A stretch of 64,000 bases of DNA. Source: Candidatus Omnitrophota bacterium (GTDB taxonomy: Bacteria; Omnitrophota; Gorgyraeia; Zapsychrales; JANLHA01). Of this stretch, positions 34,341 to 42,335 are shown in pieces. The translations under genes and the position numbers were made by a program. The stretch spans positions 259,277 through 323,276 of the forward strand of contig JAKLFA010000001.1 in NCBI GenBank assembly GCA_022711395.1, read 5' to 3'. The notes beneath the pieces were generated by a model that did not search any database, had not been told where the DNA came from, and worked only from the letters and a program-made list of their open reading frames with translations. Position 1 is the stretch's first letter, and every line of letters begins with the position of its first letter.

Positions 34341-35285
34341 ATGCGCATTGTCGTTGTCGGTCCGGGAGCTTTGGGATGTTTTTTGGCTGGAAAGTTATCG
34401 AACCGGACCGAAGTCTGGCTTTTGGATCATGACCCGCTAAGGGCGGTGCGGATCGTGGAACAGGGAGGTATCCATTGCGAGGAACAGGATGGCCGCTGGA
34501 AAGCCAAGATCCCGGTCACTGCGCGGGCTGAGGATATCGGGATCGCTGATGCCGTGGTCATTTGCACTAAGGCCTATCACACCCGCGAGGCGCTTTTGCA
34601 GGCCCAACCAGCTATTGGTAAGCACACGCTTGTTTTAAGCCTTCAAAATGGAATGGGGAACTCAGAATTCATCCTGGATATGGTTGGAGCGGAACGGACA
34701 GCTTTGGGTGTCACCCATCACGGGGTCATCAAGACCGCGGAAGGCCGCATTCAGCATGCTGGAGAGGGAATGACATGTATTGGATCGTTGACAGGAAAGG
34801 CCAGCCCTCAATTAAAGACCCTTAAAAAGATCTTTTCATCAGCCGGGATCAAGACCACGATTTCTGAAAATATTTTGGGTATATTGTGGTCCAAGCTGGT
34901 TATCAACGTCGGTATTAATGCGCTTACGGCGCTCACGCATTTGAAGAATGGACAGCTTCTGGACTTCGAGGGGACACAGGAAGTCATGGCCATGGCGCTG
35001 CAGGAGGCGGTATGTGTTGCCAAGCGCAAAAAGATCAAACTGCCGGAAAAGGATTATTTAAAAGCGGTGCAGAAAGTCTGCCGGCAAACGGATATCAATG
35101 TTTCGTCCATGCTTCAGGATATTTTAGCCGGCCGCCGCACTGAGATCGATCACATCAATGGGGTGATCGTTGAGGAGGGCATCAAATGCCGGGTCGCGAC
35201 ACCGGCCAACACGGTTCTTTACAGTTTGGTGAAGACCTGGGAACAGAGCGCCGGACAAAGGGTTGTCCGTCAGGAGGCAAGATGA
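34341..35285 (+). CDS. panE: 2-dehydropantoate 2-reductase (ketopantoate reductase)
   Basis: 314 residues. N-terminal Rossmann loop [15 protein letters not shown] binds NADPH. CTKAYHT (with catalytic Lys), LSLQNGMGN and [17 protein letters not shown] are the ApbA/PanE signatures. It reduces ketopantoate to pantoate for pantothenate synthesis, complementing panB at 41487. AGGGGGA precedes the ATG, and its own promoter is visible. It shares ATGA with dtd. Confidence 0.92.
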
Positions 35286-35728: not shown

Positions 35729-36504
35729 CACATTTGGTGGATACGCATGCGCATTTGGATTCGGTCCAGGATATCGAGGGGGCTTTGCAACGAGCGTCTG
35801 AGGCGGGAGTGATTGGAATTCTGGCCGTGGGGGAAGACCAGGATTCGAACCGGAAAAATCTCAGCCTTCAGCGGCCGGGATCCGGACCTGAGATCCGTGT
35901 CGGACTGGGGATCCATCCGGGCCGCATCGTGACCGAGCGATTGGACGAAGAGTTCGCCTTTATTGCGCAGTATATTTCAAAGGCTTCAGCGGTGGGGGAA
36001 ATCGGTCTGGATTTCTGGTATAAATGGGTGCGCAAGGACGATCAAAAAAAGGAAGAGCAGCGGAGCGTTTATCGCAGGCTTTTGGCGCTGGCGATCGATC
36101 ATGGACTTCCCGCGGTCATCCACACCCGTGGAGCGTGGCGGGAAGCGTTTGAGATCGCCAAAGAAATGAAGGTCGCGCGGGCAGTATTCCATTGGTATTC
36201 AGGCCCGCTGGATGTCTTGGAAGACATTCTTAAAGAAGGATATTTTATTTCGGCTTCACCGAGCGTTGCTTACAGCCCGGAATCACGGCAGTCCTTGGTC
36301 GCCGCTCCGGTTGAGCAAACCCTGATCGAGACCGATTCGCCGGTTTATTATAAACAGTGCGAGGGCGGATTTCAGGCGGAGCCGAAAGATGTGTTTCGCA
36401 CATTAAAATATTATGCTACATTAAAGCAACGCGGAGAAGATGATCTGGCCCGGATCCTGAATGGCAACGCCATCAGGCTGTTCGGTTTCAGTGATGCGGG
36501 TTAG
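35725..36504 (+). CDS. TatD-family metal-dependent hydrolase
   Basis: 259 residues. Metal ligands: DTHAHLD near residue 6, GEIGLDFW (Glu), VIHTRGAW (His), FHWYSG (His) and IETDSPVYY (Asp). TatD proteins are 3'-5' exonucleases or deoxyribonucleases. It is on the short side but complete. ATGA overlap with dtd supports co-translation. Substrate specificity is not evident; related archaeal-type members often show this short form. Confidence 0.87.
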
Positions 36505-36520
36505 AAAGGAAAGGATTGGT

Positions 36521-38863
36521 ATGAAAAAAGTCATTCTTGCTGTTCTCATTGTTTGTTTTCTGGTTGTTGCGGGATTTTTTGTTTACCAGGAATTTTTTGC
36601 GCAAAAGGAGTTAACACCGGAAGATCTGGTTCCCTTTGGCGCGTTGGCGTATAGCCATGTCTATGATGTGGAAGCGCGTTGGGCGGCCTTTGAGAAAAGC
36701 AAACTCATTCAGGAGATCTCTCAAATTTCGCTCAATGAATTTTTGGATAAAATGGGGGCCCAGTCGCATGAGAAGATGACCGTCAATATGGTCTTGGAGC
36801 AGCTCAAATCACCGGCAAACCGTCAGCTTGTCAATCAGTTTTTGGGGCAGGAAGTGGCGGTCGCGATTTATCCGACTGAGAAAAAGGAGTTCGGCCCTGA
36901 AATGTGGATGGATGCGGCTACCAATATCATGATCGTGACGCGTTTAAAACCTGAAGTCCGGTTCGTTGAATTGATCACCCCGGTCTTTTCCAAGTTTAAT
37001 CAGGAGATTTCTGAGAGCGAAACGCCGTATAAAAAATACACGATCCATCTTTTGAGCGTCTTTGGTGATCAGGTGACCATCGGGTATGTGCGTTTTGGTG
37101 ATTTGCTTGTCGTCGGGTTGGGGGACCGTGCTGCGCGCCGGGCGATCGATGTGGTCAGTGGTGACCTTCAGTCCTTGGCAAAAGACCCGCAGTTCAGCCA
37201 GTCCATTCCTGCGGAAACGGGCCGGGGGGATGTGACGTTCTTCAACTATGCGACCTTCGCCCAGAAGATGAAAGAATATATCTTGAGCGCTGCCATGAAG
37301 GACGGAAGCAACTGGACCGCCCAGGTACAGGTTGAGATCGAGGAGAATTTTAAGCAGATGAATGGTTTTAAGACCATGGTCTCCGTGATGCAATATGGAG
37401 AGGTGAATGAACTGAGTTCAGTGGTTCATTTTGAGCCGGAGAACATGCATCCGGATGTTCTGCCGTTCTATCAGGTCCGCCCGCAAGAAAACACGTCTTT
37501 GGATTTTATTCCGGCGGATGTTGTGTATTATCAGTGGCAGGGAGGGATCGATTTCAAGCAGTATTGGATCCAGGCCAAAAAGCAGATGCAGATGATCGCT
37601 GAACGCTCCGGGCAGGCGCCGGGGGCGGGCCCGGACCAGTTCGTCCAGGCCATGGAAACCCAGGCGGGCATGAGCATTGAAAAAGGGATCCTGCCGCTGT
37701 TCGGGGATGAGATGGGAGGGTTCTTGCTTGATATTGGATCGATGGGACCGTTCCCATTGCCTAAACTGGCTGTTTTTCTTGAAGTGACCAATGAAGCCAA
37801 GATCACGGAGTTGTTGAATAAGATGCTGGATACCCTTACTTTTATTCGGATCGAAAGTGAAGAATATCAAGGGGTGTATTTGAGATATGCCAGTATCCCT
37901 ATGGCGGAAGGGATCAGCCCTTCCTGTGGCGTGTTCAATAAATTTCTGGTCTGCACCACAAATCGGGAACTTTTTAAATCCATGGTCGATATCAGTAAAA
38001 ATATCGGAGATAAAAGCATATCCCTTAAAGGGAACCGCCTGTTCAACAATCCGCAATACCGACTGACGCGCCCGAGCAATGGAGTGTTCTTTGTGAATGT
38101 TCCGAACTTAATGGACAAGCTGTCGGTCTTGGTCGATGTTTTTGAGCAGTGGATGGCGATGCAAGAGGCGCAGCAAAAAGCATTGCGAAGCGGCACGGAG
38201 AAGCGTTTGGAGGACATCAATTCAAAGCTTGCGCAAAGCAGAGATGTCTTCAGTGCCTTGGAACAGGAACTCGTCGGGCTGCAGGAACAGAAAACAGCGA
38301 CACCGGCCGTTGACACATCCCGTCTGGAGAGCGTTGCTCAGGAATTGGATCGGCAGCAGAAGATCCGGGAGAATTTCCAAAACCGTTTGGAAGAACTGCA
38401 GAAAGAAGAAGAGGAGCTTCTGGCGGTCCAGGCTGTGGAAGGACAGAAGCTGAGCACTGCCGGTCAACTGAGATTGAAAGAAGTCCAGACAGATATCGCT
38501 TCACAGAAAGAGCGCATCTCCGGTTTGGAGGGCAAACTGACGGAACTAACGCGGCAGCATCAGGAGTTGATGGCAGCCGCCAATTCTTCCGATGGAGTGC
38601 AGAAGCTCATCAGCGATAAGGAAACGAAGCTTGCTCAGGTCCGTGAAGAGATCAAAGATGATGAAGAGATCCGTGAAGAGATCAAGGTCCTGTTAGAGGG
38701 ATATAATAACCGGGATAGTGTTTCGGAAGAGGAACGGATGTATTTGGTCAAGAGCTTCCTCAAGCCTTTGCTGTCGGCGTTTAAAAATATCCATTGGATC
38801 GCGGGGCGGATGGAAATCCATGAGAGGACGATACGATCGGATATGATGTTCAAATATGAATGA
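36521..38863 (+). CDS. Large membrane-anchored protein with C-terminal coiled coil, unknown function
   Basis: 780 residues. The N-terminal helix (VILAVLIVCFLVVAGFFVYQ) serves as uncleaved anchor or signal. About 500 residues follow with two related-looking halves (VNQFLGQEVAVAIYP; ILPLFGDEMGGFLLD), a pattern I associate with DUF3352-like proteins, though I am not certain. Residues about 550-730 are a long Glu/Gln/Lys coiled coil. The C-terminus returns to globular sequence. AAAGGAAAGGA precedes ATG 36521; an earlier ATG 36461 lies within tatD. It is probably periplasmic. The gene overlaps the next by 8 bp. Confidence 0.65.
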   Translation: MKKVILAVLIVCFLVVAGFFVYQEFFAQKELTPEDLVPFGALAYSHVYDVEARWAAFEKSKLIQEISQISLNEFLDKMGAQSHEKMTVNMVLEQLKSPANRQLVNQFLGQEVAVAIYPTEKKEFGPEMWMDAATNIMIVTRLKPEVRFVELITPVFSKFNQEISESETPYKKYTIHLLSVFGDQVTIGYVRFGDLLVVGLGDRAARRAIDVVSGDLQSLAKDPQFSQSIPAETGRGDVTFFNYATFAQKMKEYILSAAMKDGSNWTAQVQVEIEENFKQMNGFKTMVSVMQYGEVNELSSVVHFEPENMHPDVLPFYQVRPQENTSLDFIPADVVYYQWQGGIDFKQYWIQAKKQMQMIAERSGQAPGAGPDQFVQAMETQAGMSIEKGILPLFGDEMGGFLLDIGSMGPFPLPKLAVFLEVTNEAKITELLNKMLDTLTFIRIESEEYQGVYLRYASIPMAEGISPSCGVFNKFLVCTTNRELFKSMVDISKNIGDKSISLKGNRLFNNPQYRLTRPSNGVFFVNVPNLMDKLSVLVDVFEQWMAMQEAQQKALRSGTEKRLEDINSKLAQSRDVFSALEQELVGLQEQKTATPAVDTSRLESVAQELDRQQKIRENFQNRLEELQKEEEELLAVQAVEGQKLSTAGQLRLKEVQTDIASQKERISGLEGKLTELTRQHQELMAAANSSDGVQKLISDKETKLAQVREEIKDDEEIREEIKVLLEGYNNRDSVSEEERMYLVKSFLKPLLSAFKNIHWIAGRMEIHERTIRSDMMFKYE

Positions 38864-39271: not shown

Positions 39272-40123
39272 ATGGAATTCCAAATCATTAACAAACAGAT
39301 CATCGGAAGGGATATCAAGCGCTTGGACGTCCGTGCGGAGGCGATCGCGCATAAGGTGTTGCCGGGCCAATTCGTCATGGTCGCGCCGGAGGAGAACAGC
39401 AAATGGATTCCCCTCTCCGTTGCTGAGACAGATCTGCGCAGGGGTTTGATCAGCCTGATCTTTCAGGAGAAGGGGCATACGACCCAGGTGCTGGGAAAAC
39501 TGGGCATCCATGAAAAGCTGTTCTCGGTGACCGGGCCTTTTGGAAAGGCTCCTGAGATCCGTCAGCTTGGGGTTGTGGTATGTTTGGCCACGGGTGTGGG
39601 CGCGGCGCAGATCTTGCCGATGGCAAAAGCCTATAAGAAGGCAGGGAACAAGGTGATCGGAATTTTGTCAGCACCCACCAAGAAAGAGATCATTTTGGAG
39701 CCTCAAATGCGGATCGCCTGTCACCGTATCTTTATTGCCACCGATGATGGAAGCTATCAGCGCAAAGGCGCTGCCATTGAAACATTGAGGGAGGCCCTTG
39801 ATCAGGAAGATGTTCATTTGGTCTATGATGTGGGGCCTGTTGACGTCATGCGTGAGATAGCCCATTTTACAAAGGAACGGCGGATCCCGAATCTGATCCA
39901 GGTGCAGACGCTGATGTCTTGCGGACGGGGGATCTGCGGTTCGTGCCGGGTAAAGGCCAAGCACTCCATCCAGTTGTCTTGTGAGGAAGGGCCTGAGTTT
40001 GATGGACACACAATCGATTTTGATTATTTGAAGCAGCGAATGGGGCACAGGCATGAAGAGAGGCCTCTGGAGCAGGCTGACGAGGGGATCCGCGGTTTTT
40101 GGAAACAGATGATGAAAGAGTAA
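39272..40123 (+). CDS. NfnA/SudB-like FAD-NAD binding [2Fe-2S] subunit
   Basis: 283 residues of the ferredoxin-NADP reductase/PyrK superfamily. An FAD-binding barrel (about 1-95) precedes a nucleotide domain with LATGVGAAQILPMAKAY. A C-terminal [2Fe-2S] motif SCGRGICGSCRV plus a later Cys (LSCEEGP) completes it. In NfnA this subunit takes electrons from NADH and works with NfnB to bifurcate between ferredoxin and NADPH. The related GltD-like gene follows 6 bp later, which supports the assignment. Homology to PyrK and sulfide dehydrogenase beta leaves the exact role open. Confidence 0.82.
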   Translation: MEFQIINKQIIGRDIKRLDVRAEAIAHKVLPGQFVMVAPEENSKWIPLSVAETDLRRGLISLIFQEKGHTTQVLGKLGIHEKLFSVTGPFGKAPEIRQLGVVVCLATGVGAAQILPMAKAYKKAGNKVIGILSAPTKKEIILEPQMRIACHRIFIATDDGSYQRKGAAIETLREALDQEDVHLVYDVGPVDVMREIAHFTKERRIPNLIQVQTLMSCGRGICGSCRVKAKHSIQLSCEEGPEFDGHTIDFDYLKQRMGHRHEERPLEQADEGIRGFWKQMMKE

Positions 40124-40129
40124 GAGACC

Positions 40130-41485
40130 ATGAAAACAACGCCAATCCCTGTCCAGAATTGTGAAAAACGCCTTAAGAATTTTAGCGAGGTCGAGCTGGG
40201 GTTTTCAAAAAAGATCGCAGTCGATGAGGCGCGTCTTTTTCCGCAGAGCAGTTCGCCGGGGCGCCAGCCAAGGTGCCCGCTGGGGATCGATATTTTAGGG
40301 TTTGTGCGTTGTCTGAGGGAGGGCGAAATATCGGCTGCGTATGATAAGATCCGTGAAAAAAATGAGCTTCCCGGTGTCTGTGGGCGTGTTTGTTCGGCGC
40401 CTTGCGAGGAGGATTTTATCATTGGCGGAAAACAGATGGAAGTGGATGTGCGGGCCTTGGAACGTTTTGCCGCTGACCATGGCCGTCCCCGCCTGTTCAG
40501 GCGAAAACAATATGAACAACAGGGCGCGATGGTTGCTGTCGTAGGCTCGGGTCCGGCGGGGCTTTCAGCCGCGGCATGTCTGGCTCGCTCAGGGTTCCGG
40601 GTCACGGTCTTTGAGTCGTTGCCTCAGCTTGGAGGGATGCTGCGTTACGGGGTGGCTGGTTTTCGTCTTTCGAAAGACATTCTAAATGCCGAGATCGAAA
40701 TGATACGGGACCTCGGCGTTCAGTTCCAAGCCAATTGTTGCATAGGGAGAACGGTCACATTGGAGGAGCTTTATCAACAGGGTTTTGCCGCTGTCCTTCT
40801 GGCGGTCGGCCGTCAGTATCCCGCCCCGTTAAAAGACCAGGGGACAGACGCTCACCACGTGATCTGCGCTTCGGAGGTCCTGTTGAAGCTGGGCGCTTCG
40901 GAGGAGAATTTTATCAGGGAGTTCCAGCACCGTTTGGGCCATACGATCGTTGTGATCGGAGATCATGAATTGGCCTTGGATTGCGCACGAGCCTGTCGCC
41001 GGCTGAAGGACAAAAAGGTCAAACTTGTTTTCGCACGGACGGAAGAAGACCTGCTTTGCCACCGCAATGAGATCGAACAGGCCAAAGCTGAAGGGGTCGA
41101 ATTTGAAGCGATGATGCATTTTCAAAAAGTATGTTTGAGCGATGATGGCGATGTTTGCGGGATCCAATGCGGGCGCATGGACTACGCTGACCAGGACGGC
41201 CAGTGGAGATTGATGCCAGTCCCTGATTCGCAGGTTGTAGTGGAGGCGGACACGGTCATTATGACCCGTGGGCAGACCGTCAATCAGGATATTTTTAAGA
41301 TTTCCTCTTTTGCGAAACTGACGCGGGAAGGATTCTTGGCTGTTGATCCGGAGACATCCCGGGTCCATGACAATATTTTTGCCGCAGGCCACGCGGTTAT
41401 GGCTCAGGATGGTATTGTTTACGCGATGCGTTCCGGTGTTCATGCCGCCGAGAAGATCATTGAATTTTTAAGCGGGGGATCGTGA
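40130..41485 (+). CDS. NfnB/GltD-like FAD oxidoreductase with degenerate motifs
   Basis: 451 residues. The FAD loop VVGSGPAGLSAAACL near 137 and the final GD-like box FAAGHAVMAQDGIVYAM are typical, though the usual GD is AGH. The N-terminal Fe-S region is reduced: the first four-Cys motif of GltD/NfnB is gone except C49 (RCPLGIDI), and the second has C84, C88 and C92 (VCGRVCSAPCEE). At most one cluster seems possible. The second Rossmann loop reads VVIGDHELALDCA where relatives have V-I-G-G-G-N-x-A-M-D. It may be a divergent Nfn subunit with altered cofactor use. It pairs with the subunit upstream. Confidence 0.8.
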   Translation: MKTTPIPVQNCEKRLKNFSEVELGFSKKIAVDEARLFPQSSSPGRQPRCPLGIDILGFVRCLREGEISAAYDKIREKNELPGVCGRVCSAPCEEDFIIGGKQMEVDVRALERFAADHGRPRLFRRKQYEQQGAMVAVVGSGPAGLSAAACLARSGFRVTVFESLPQLGGMLRYGVAGFRLSKDILNAEIEMIRDLGVQFQANCCIGRTVTLEELYQQGFAAVLLAVGRQYPAPLKDQGTDAHHVICASEVLLKLGASEENFIREFQHRLGHTIVVIGDHELALDCARACRRLKDKKVKLVFARTEEDLLCHRNEIEQAKAEGVEFEAMMHFQKVCLSDDGDVCGIQCGRMDYADQDGQWRLMPVPDSQVVVEADTVIMTRGQTVNQDIFKISSFAKLTREGFLAVDPETSRVHDNIFAAGHAVMAQDGIVYAMRSGVHAAEKIIEFLSGGS

Positions 41486-41486
41486 A

Positions 41487-42335
41487 ATGCCAGGTCGAGT
41501 ATCTGTTTCAGACCTTCAAAAGAAAAAGGAACAGGGGCGGAAGATCACGATGGTCACGTCCTACGGCTATTCGTTCGCGAAGCTGGTTGACGCTTGCGGC
41601 ATGGATGTTATTTTAATCGGTGATTCGGTGGCGAATGTTGTTATGGGCTTAAAGACGACTAGGACGGTCACGGTCGACGAGATGGTCCATCATGCCGCGG
41701 CCGTTAATCGTGGGGTCGCTCGTAGCTTGGTGGCCGCGGATTTGCCATTTTCCGCGGTGCAGGGCGGACCCGAAATGGTTCTTGAGGCGGCCCGTCGGCT
41801 TTTGAATACCGGCTGCGACGCGGTTAAGATCGAGTGGTGTGATGGTTGCCTTGAAATGATCGATCGGCTGCGCCGAGAGGATATTGCAGTGATGGGACAT
41901 GTGGGATTGACCCCGCAGACCGCCGAGGAGACCGGAGGATTTAAAGTCCGAGGAAAGACCGCGGAAGCGGCGCATGAAATTTATCAAAGGGCCTTGGAAC
42001 AGCAAACGCACGGCTGTTTCGCTGTTGTTCTGGAATGCATCCCGGACCGTGTCGCCTCTGTTATCACAAAAAAACTGCGGGTTCCCACGATCGGGATCGG
42101 GGCCGGCAAGGAGTGTGACGGTCAGGTCCTGGTGCTGGATGATCTTTTGGGCTTGTTTGAGGATTACCATCCGAAGTTTGCTAAGCGTTATGCCCAGCTC
42201 GCCTTGGAAACAAAGCGTGCGGTGACGGCCTATATTCATGATGTAAGTTCTGCGTCTTTTCCCGCAAAAGAGCATAGTTTTTCTATAGGGGATGAAGATT
42301 TTGAAGGATTCTTGGGCCGAATAACGTCCGCGTGA
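41487..42335 (+). CDS. panB: 3-methyl-2-oxobutanoate hydroxymethyltransferase
   Basis: 282 residues, full length. Motifs: MVTSYGYSFAKLVDACGMD, LIGDSVANVVMG, MGHVGLTPQ and TIGIGAGKECDGQVLVLDD. PanB adds a hydroxymethyl group from methylene-THF to 2-oxoisovalerate, the first pantothenate step, upstream of PanE. ATG 41487 lies just after the oxidoreductase stop (TGA at 41483-41485). The gene follows the Nfn-like pair, so the three may be one transcript. Confidence 0.95.
   Translation: MPGRVSVSDLQKKKEQGRKITMVTSYGYSFAKLVDACGMDVILIGDSVANVVMGLKTTRTVTVDEMVHHAAAVNRGVARSLVAADLPFSAVQGGPEMVLEAARRLLNTGCDAVKIEWCDGCLEMIDRLRREDIAVMGHVGLTPQTAEETGGFKVRGKTAEAAHEIYQRALEQQTHGCFAVVLECIPDRVASVITKKLRVPTIGIGAGKECDGQVLVLDDLLGLFEDYHPKFAKRYAQLALETKRAVTAYIHDVSSASFPAKEHSFSIGDEDFEGFLGRITSA

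Follow-up and report, generated by a model that had tools for sequence, protein, structure and literature searches.

A divergent NfnAB-like gene pair of Omnitrophota that has lost its distal iron-sulfur ligands and probably no longer bifurcates electrons

The window, a stretch of 64,000 nucleotides from the draft genome (9 contigs) of a Candidatus Omnitrophota bacterium, carries an nfnB/gltD-like gene (40130..41485; 451 aa) whose protein has lost all four ligands of the distal [4Fe-4S] cluster and has kept all four of the proximal one. Together with its nfnA-like partner (39272..40123; 283 aa), it is read here, with modest preference, as an order-specific and vertically inherited Nfn descendant that resides at a polX-nfnA-nfnB-panB locus and has turned non-bifurcating. 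The fold and the gene pairing are those of Nfn. No description of the Omnitrophota clade to which the pair belongs was found in the portions available of the open-licence literature on Nfn variants and on Omnitrophota.

Both genes of the pair, the sites mapped within them, and the next gene downstream lie on the plus strand. The first-pass annotation had described the nfnB-like gene as intact and coupled to an NfnA-like partner, and this was borne out: the frame is open, and the stop of the partner precedes its ATG by six bases. One base past the nfnB-like stop begins the next gene (41487..42335), which we take from its motifs to be a panB homologue and use as context only. In NCBIfam searches, the partner scored above the cut-off of the model for a sulfide/dihydroorotate dehydrogenase-like FAD/NAD-binding protein (PRK06222) and fell well short of the cut-offs of the dihydroorotate dehydrogenase models. 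The NfnB-like protein matched NADPH-dependent glutamate synthase models and was over the cut-off for none among the matches listed. Its best solved relatives were 4ylf_B from T. maritima, labeled dihydropyrimidine dehydrogenase subunit A in the alignment record and NfnB in the entry title, and 5jca_L, NfnI of P. furiosus. The AlphaFold model, built on a 38-row alignment, had a mean pLDDT of 87.2 and matched 5jca_L best, with a TM of 0.89.

Cluster ligands were mapped by aligning the window protein to 4ylf_B and applying the T. maritima ligand list given in PMC7596348 (distal, C39, C42, C47, and C100; proximal, C51, C90, C96, and E117). The distal positions are occupied by F37, S40, and R45 (residues 37-45; 40238..40264) and by F96 (40415..40417), such that 0/4 ligands are kept. 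The proximal positions are occupied by C49 (40274..40276), C88 and C92 (40391..40405), and E111 (40460..40462), the last equivalent to T. maritima E117, such that 4/4 are kept. If four of the eight ligand positions were lost randomly, the chance of exactly this set would be 1 in 70. Ferredoxin is predicted to dock near the distal cluster (PMC6405883, PMC5861303), and the iron-sulfur site lost is, as read from the alignment, exactly that which passes electrons to ferredoxin. The earlier statement that Fe-S ligands had been lost thus holds for the distal cluster and is too broad for the protein, in which one of two clusters is lost and the proximal one keeps its ligands. The four cysteines named there, C49, C84, C88, and C92, are all present, and C84, the first Cys of CGRVC, is no cluster ligand and is T in one Nfn with standard motifs (G001can). 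The only spare N-terminal cysteines, C11 and C61, are too few and lie at no ligand position, and we therefore rejected the idea that shifted cysteines restore the distal ligands.

The flavin site of the NfnB-like protein is preserved. The FAD loop GSGPAG (residues 139-144; 40544..40561) is kept, as is R179 (40664..40666), which by counting in the 4ylf_B alignment corresponds to T. maritima R187 and which we presume to be the arginine at FAD N5. The second Rossmann loop reads VVIGDHELALD in the translation, exactly as first noted, and contains a degraded NADP loop (GDHELALD, residues 277-284; 40958..40981) in which GxG has become GDH with the second glycine gone. The 2'-phosphate motif, Y310-R311-R312 in T. 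maritima (PMC7596348), is replaced in the 4ylf_B alignment by FAR (residues 301-303; 41030..41038), with one of the two arginines gone and R303 kept. Position 311 of the window protein is H and is R in all 29 standard-motif Nfn of our comparison set, which comprises 23 from the class, 1 from the phylum, and 5 second copies.

Alignment of NfnA sequences placed the [2Fe-2S] ligands of the partner at C217, C222, C225, and C237 (39920..39982), the first of which is Asp in standard Nfn. Asp occupies this position in 24/24 standard-motif partners and 39/55 members from the order, and Cys in 7/7 members of the window's family (f1). The Asp ligand has been linked to a potential of +80 mV for this cluster (PMC6405883). 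The nucleotide loop of the partner (residues 106-108; 39587..39595) reads ATG in place of GGG; ATG is found in 39/55 order members, and GGG in 18/24 standard partners. The Asp ligand is Asn in 8/11 NfnA-like genes of family f7 (e.g. L063, L064, L074), and the f6 partners (L047, L051, and L054, from G011, G016, and G020) have lost the [2Fe-2S] cysteines, FAD motif, and nucleotide loop. None of the eight cluster ligands is missing from the f6 NfnB, so that the loss is opposite to that of the window pair. In G001 (L037, 4065-6269), a single fused frame of 735 codons encodes both the NfnA-like and the NfnB-like part.

The window pair resembles NfnAB/NfnI (T. maritima 4ylf, P. furiosus 5jca) in its two adjacent genes, folds (TM 0.89-0.90), FAD motif, proximal ligands, and [2Fe-2S] partner, but differs in the absent distal ligands, degraded NADP(H) site, Cys for Asp at the [2Fe-2S] site, and altered nucleotide loop of the partner. 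Six Nfn features were tested in sequence. The pair has the NfnA-type neighbor, the NfnB fold with its FAD site, and the proximal three Cys and Glu; it lacks the four distal Cys, the GxG and YRR motifs, and the Asp(Cys)3 [2Fe-2S] site in NfnA, and with these three missing we do not class it among the bifurcating Nfn. GltD has the same domain order and the same C-x3-C-x3-C spacing in its second cysteine motif, which also holds, as far as the first Cys, for the gltD frame of this genome. However, gltB is absent near the window pair, whose neighbors are NfnA-like and PanB-like, and the genome's own gltD lies elsewhere beside a gltB-like frame, both being named from family features. The [2Fe-2S] site of PyrK has a four-cysteine pattern, to which the partner is alike, but the partner is set apart by the NCBIfam scores above and by adjoining an NfnB-like gene. 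NfnII/Xfn (P. furiosus, 5vj7) is another variant of Nfn in which a single port is altered, and the available text of PMC6405883 describes it as keeping ferredoxin:NADP+ activity and lacking NAD+ activity, whereas the window pair appears damaged on both the ferredoxin and NADP sides. DsrL, a GltD-like protein with some distal ligands replaced (PMC7596348), provides a precedent for partial substitution. DsrL keeps C47 and C100 and carries at its C-terminus a ferredoxin domain that binds two further [4Fe-4S] clusters, whereas the window protein keeps no distal ligand and, by Pfam, has no ferredoxin domain after the N-terminal one in its 451 residues.

Searches at the family, order, and phylum levels produced 56 divergent-type members from the order, or 55 without G063, whose N-terminus is missing at a contig edge; 6/85 NfnB rows were without an NfnA frame. 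The 55 order members formed one group with support of 100/100 in a tree of 64 rows, from which NfnB residues 30-116, G063, and all but four class and phylum rows were left out. Within this clade, the FAD motif is kept in 55/55, R179 in 54/55, and the proximal ligands in 54/55, the exception being G006, the sister of the window member, which has lost one. Distal ligands are kept in 48/55 and the [2Fe-2S] core cysteines in 50/55, each with two separate losses. GxG persists in 41/55 and RR in 19/55, all 19 in family f4, and the NADP arginines have been lost in 36/55 members of the clade versus 0/29 standard-motif Nfn. In the standard set, the distal ligands, proximal ligands, GxG, RR, R311, R179, and D421 are each present in 29/29, and the FAD motif in 28/29. 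The single departure is the standard NfnB of the window genome (L002), in which the FAD loop is GSGPAS rather than GSGPAG. An NfnA-like alignment scan of named records was also carried out, and its best 80 Nfn loci contained 77 NfnB-like frames, one of them too short. The distal CCCC was kept in 76/76 of the other frames, or 77/77 rows counting the standard copy from the window's own genome. A scan of the collection with P0001 turned up no relatives.

One of the distal losses unites the window member with G006 (support 98/80), and the other unites G027 with the members of genus g15, G014, G042, G078, and G079 (support 100/100). In the latter clade, the distal positions read ACEG, ACEG, CSHG, CRSS, and CGCG, and the proximal positions stay CCCE, as would be expected if constraint ended at one cluster site only. 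Across the seven members of the order that have lost distal ligands, 22/28 distal positions are changed and 1/28 proximal. The [2Fe-2S] losses, in f6 (G011, G016, and G020) and genus g43 (G066 and G067), are separate from the distal-loss clades. No member (0/55) is without both sites, a pattern of four events that is too few for a statistical test.

The clade locus is conserved in the order polX-nfnA-nfnB-panB-glyS-ppdK. A PanB-like gene adjoins the divergent pair in 35/41 loci from the order; one of the other six is the standard copy of G016, and others end at a contig edge. Among the best class matches, a PanB-like gene lies alongside standard-motif Nfn in 16/23 loci. GlyS-like genes are frequently present there as well, and PolX- or PPDK-like ones at some of these loci. 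This setting, shared with standard-motif Nfn of other orders in the class, points to the divergent pair as the gene resident at this locus. Also within the locus, window positions 36461-38863 encode a long, fast-evolving protein of 800 aa to which we assign no function; it is present in 28/41 loci, and the window copy has a median identity of 0.24. Among 35 PanB-like proteins from the order, that of the window genome diverges most, with a median identity of 0.47 (next, 0.54), in contrast to the GlyS, PPDK, and TatD of the same genome, whose divergence is ordinary.

The window genome also encodes another nfnAB pair, one whose motifs are standard (G000:C3:231704-234032), with a glutamate dehydrogenase-like frame downstream of it. 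No polX-, panB-, glyS-, or ppdK-type neighbors were found beside it in the short stretch fetched, and it looks like a second copy. The first-pass annotation would have been refuted by another canonical nfnB in the genome together with pseudogene status of the window gene; the former is the case, but the window gene does not look like a pseudogene. Redundancy was rejected as the cause of NADP-site loss, as RR is intact in 6/14 genomes with a second Nfn-like match and 7/26 without, a hand tally of 40 draft genomes that carry the divergent gene and in which absences are soft. A third NfnA/PyrK-like stretch of this genome (L007, G000:C3:77932-78669) is reported to contain an in-frame TAG.

The above considerations suggest that the window enzyme has probably given up electron splitting for a simpler reaction. 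Loss of the distal cluster would leave no wire to ferredoxin, and with the broken NADP site the NfnB FAD would exchange little or no hydride with NADP(H); lacking both, the enzyme would not bifurcate. NAD(H) would instead feed electrons to the NfnA FAD, from where they would run through the all-Cys [2Fe-2S] cluster to the NfnB FAD and on to a further acceptor, which may occupy the vacated nicotinamide pocket. The proximal cluster could act as a one-electron store or as a structural part. As R303 is kept and the partner's own NAD loop has changed to ATG, the use of NAD(H) is itself something that we infer. Of the two functions proposed at the outset, a non-bifurcating reductase is the best inference from the loss of the distal cluster and the greater part of the NADP(H) site, combined with retention of the FAD, proximal cluster, and NfnA partner; for a new electron donor, the evidence points to no particular one.

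The main rival, which we consider unlikely but less so than any other, is that the pair is a relic, decaying or kept for structure only. Nfn function would have been abandoned in much of the order, with ports eroding singly and the proteins persisting in a residual or non-redox role until they are lost. The parts lost do differ by lineage (NADP site, distal cluster, or [2Fe-2S] cluster), some f7 genomes are without a clear member, and six columns conserved in 53 other clade members have changed in the window protein (R36L, C37F, P56L, P176A, P181S, and G243H). Nonetheless, 52/58 such columns are kept, the clade-wide proximal ligands and FAD motif persist, and the locus order is maintained. The median identity of the window protein to the clade is the sixth lowest of 56. 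We estimated dN/dS for ten pairs, all from lineages other than the window's, whose family is represented by 7 genomes in 7 genera. Two pairs had saturated NfnB dS, and the remaining eight NfnB pairs span 0.06-0.22, which also argues against a relic. Values for G014-G042, both with distal loss, were 0.19 for NfnB and 0.15 for NfnA, as compared to NfnB values of 0.06-0.10 in three distal-intact f4 pairs and 0.17-0.22 in two f7 pairs. The G014-G042 ratio, about twice that of the f4 pairs, and the six column changes in the window protein both fit relaxed constraint; selection on the Nfn pair continues after distal loss, perhaps more weakly. With an open frame, most conserved columns kept, and dN/dS well below 1 in the other distal-loss lineage, a pseudogene was not our first choice.

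A more tentative proposal is that a new substrate replaced NADP(H) at the core formed by the NfnB FAD and proximal cluster, and that one electron port was then kept per lineage. This port would be NAD(H)/[2Fe-2S] in the window lineage and g15/G027, and ferredoxin/distal in f6 and g43.

It is improbable that the pair is still a bifurcating Nfn, in which the distal cluster relies on different ligands or is bypassed, with NAD(H) or weakly bound NADP(H) serving the NfnB FAD. Retention of R303, R179, and the FAD site would allow this, and distal ligands of DsrL are in part Ser, Thr, or Arg (PMC7596348). Against it, none of the distal ligands is left, two having become Phe with only C11 and C61 to spare, the GDH loop is without its second glycine, and the partner has no Asp ligand of the kind tied to the +80 mV potential (PMC6405883). 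A role in pantoate synthesis, in which the pair would reduce ketopantoate, the product of the adjacent panB, is very doubtful and was set aside. The panB homologue is directly 3' in most loci, but a panE-like gene lies a few genes upstream of it at 34341-35285 (TIGR00745, 269.8 bits, over cut-off), a second is on the same contig, and 59/81 genomes of the order have one over cut-off; moreover, this adjacency does not track the change, as standard-motif Nfn of other orders also adjoins a PanB-like gene. A frameshift or assembly error in the N-terminal region of this draft genome, compared here without one from the same genus, is the least credible explanation and was rejected, as the separate genome G006 shows this loss too, with F likewise at position 37, and the flanking residues are in frame.

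In the text available to us, PMC6085437 regards every Nfn homologue identified as bifurcating, and a genome study of Omnitrophota (PMC8542988) includes "Sud" (sulfide dehydrogenase/ferredoxin:NADP oxidoreductase) among the bioenergetic enzymes. In the order studied here, Nfn relatives are carried in which the NADP(H) site is mostly gone and the ferredoxin-side cluster has been lost twice, and redox reconstructions would then be misled by the gene names. With its naturally occurring variants that have each lost one port, the clade offers a way to test what bifurcation requires.
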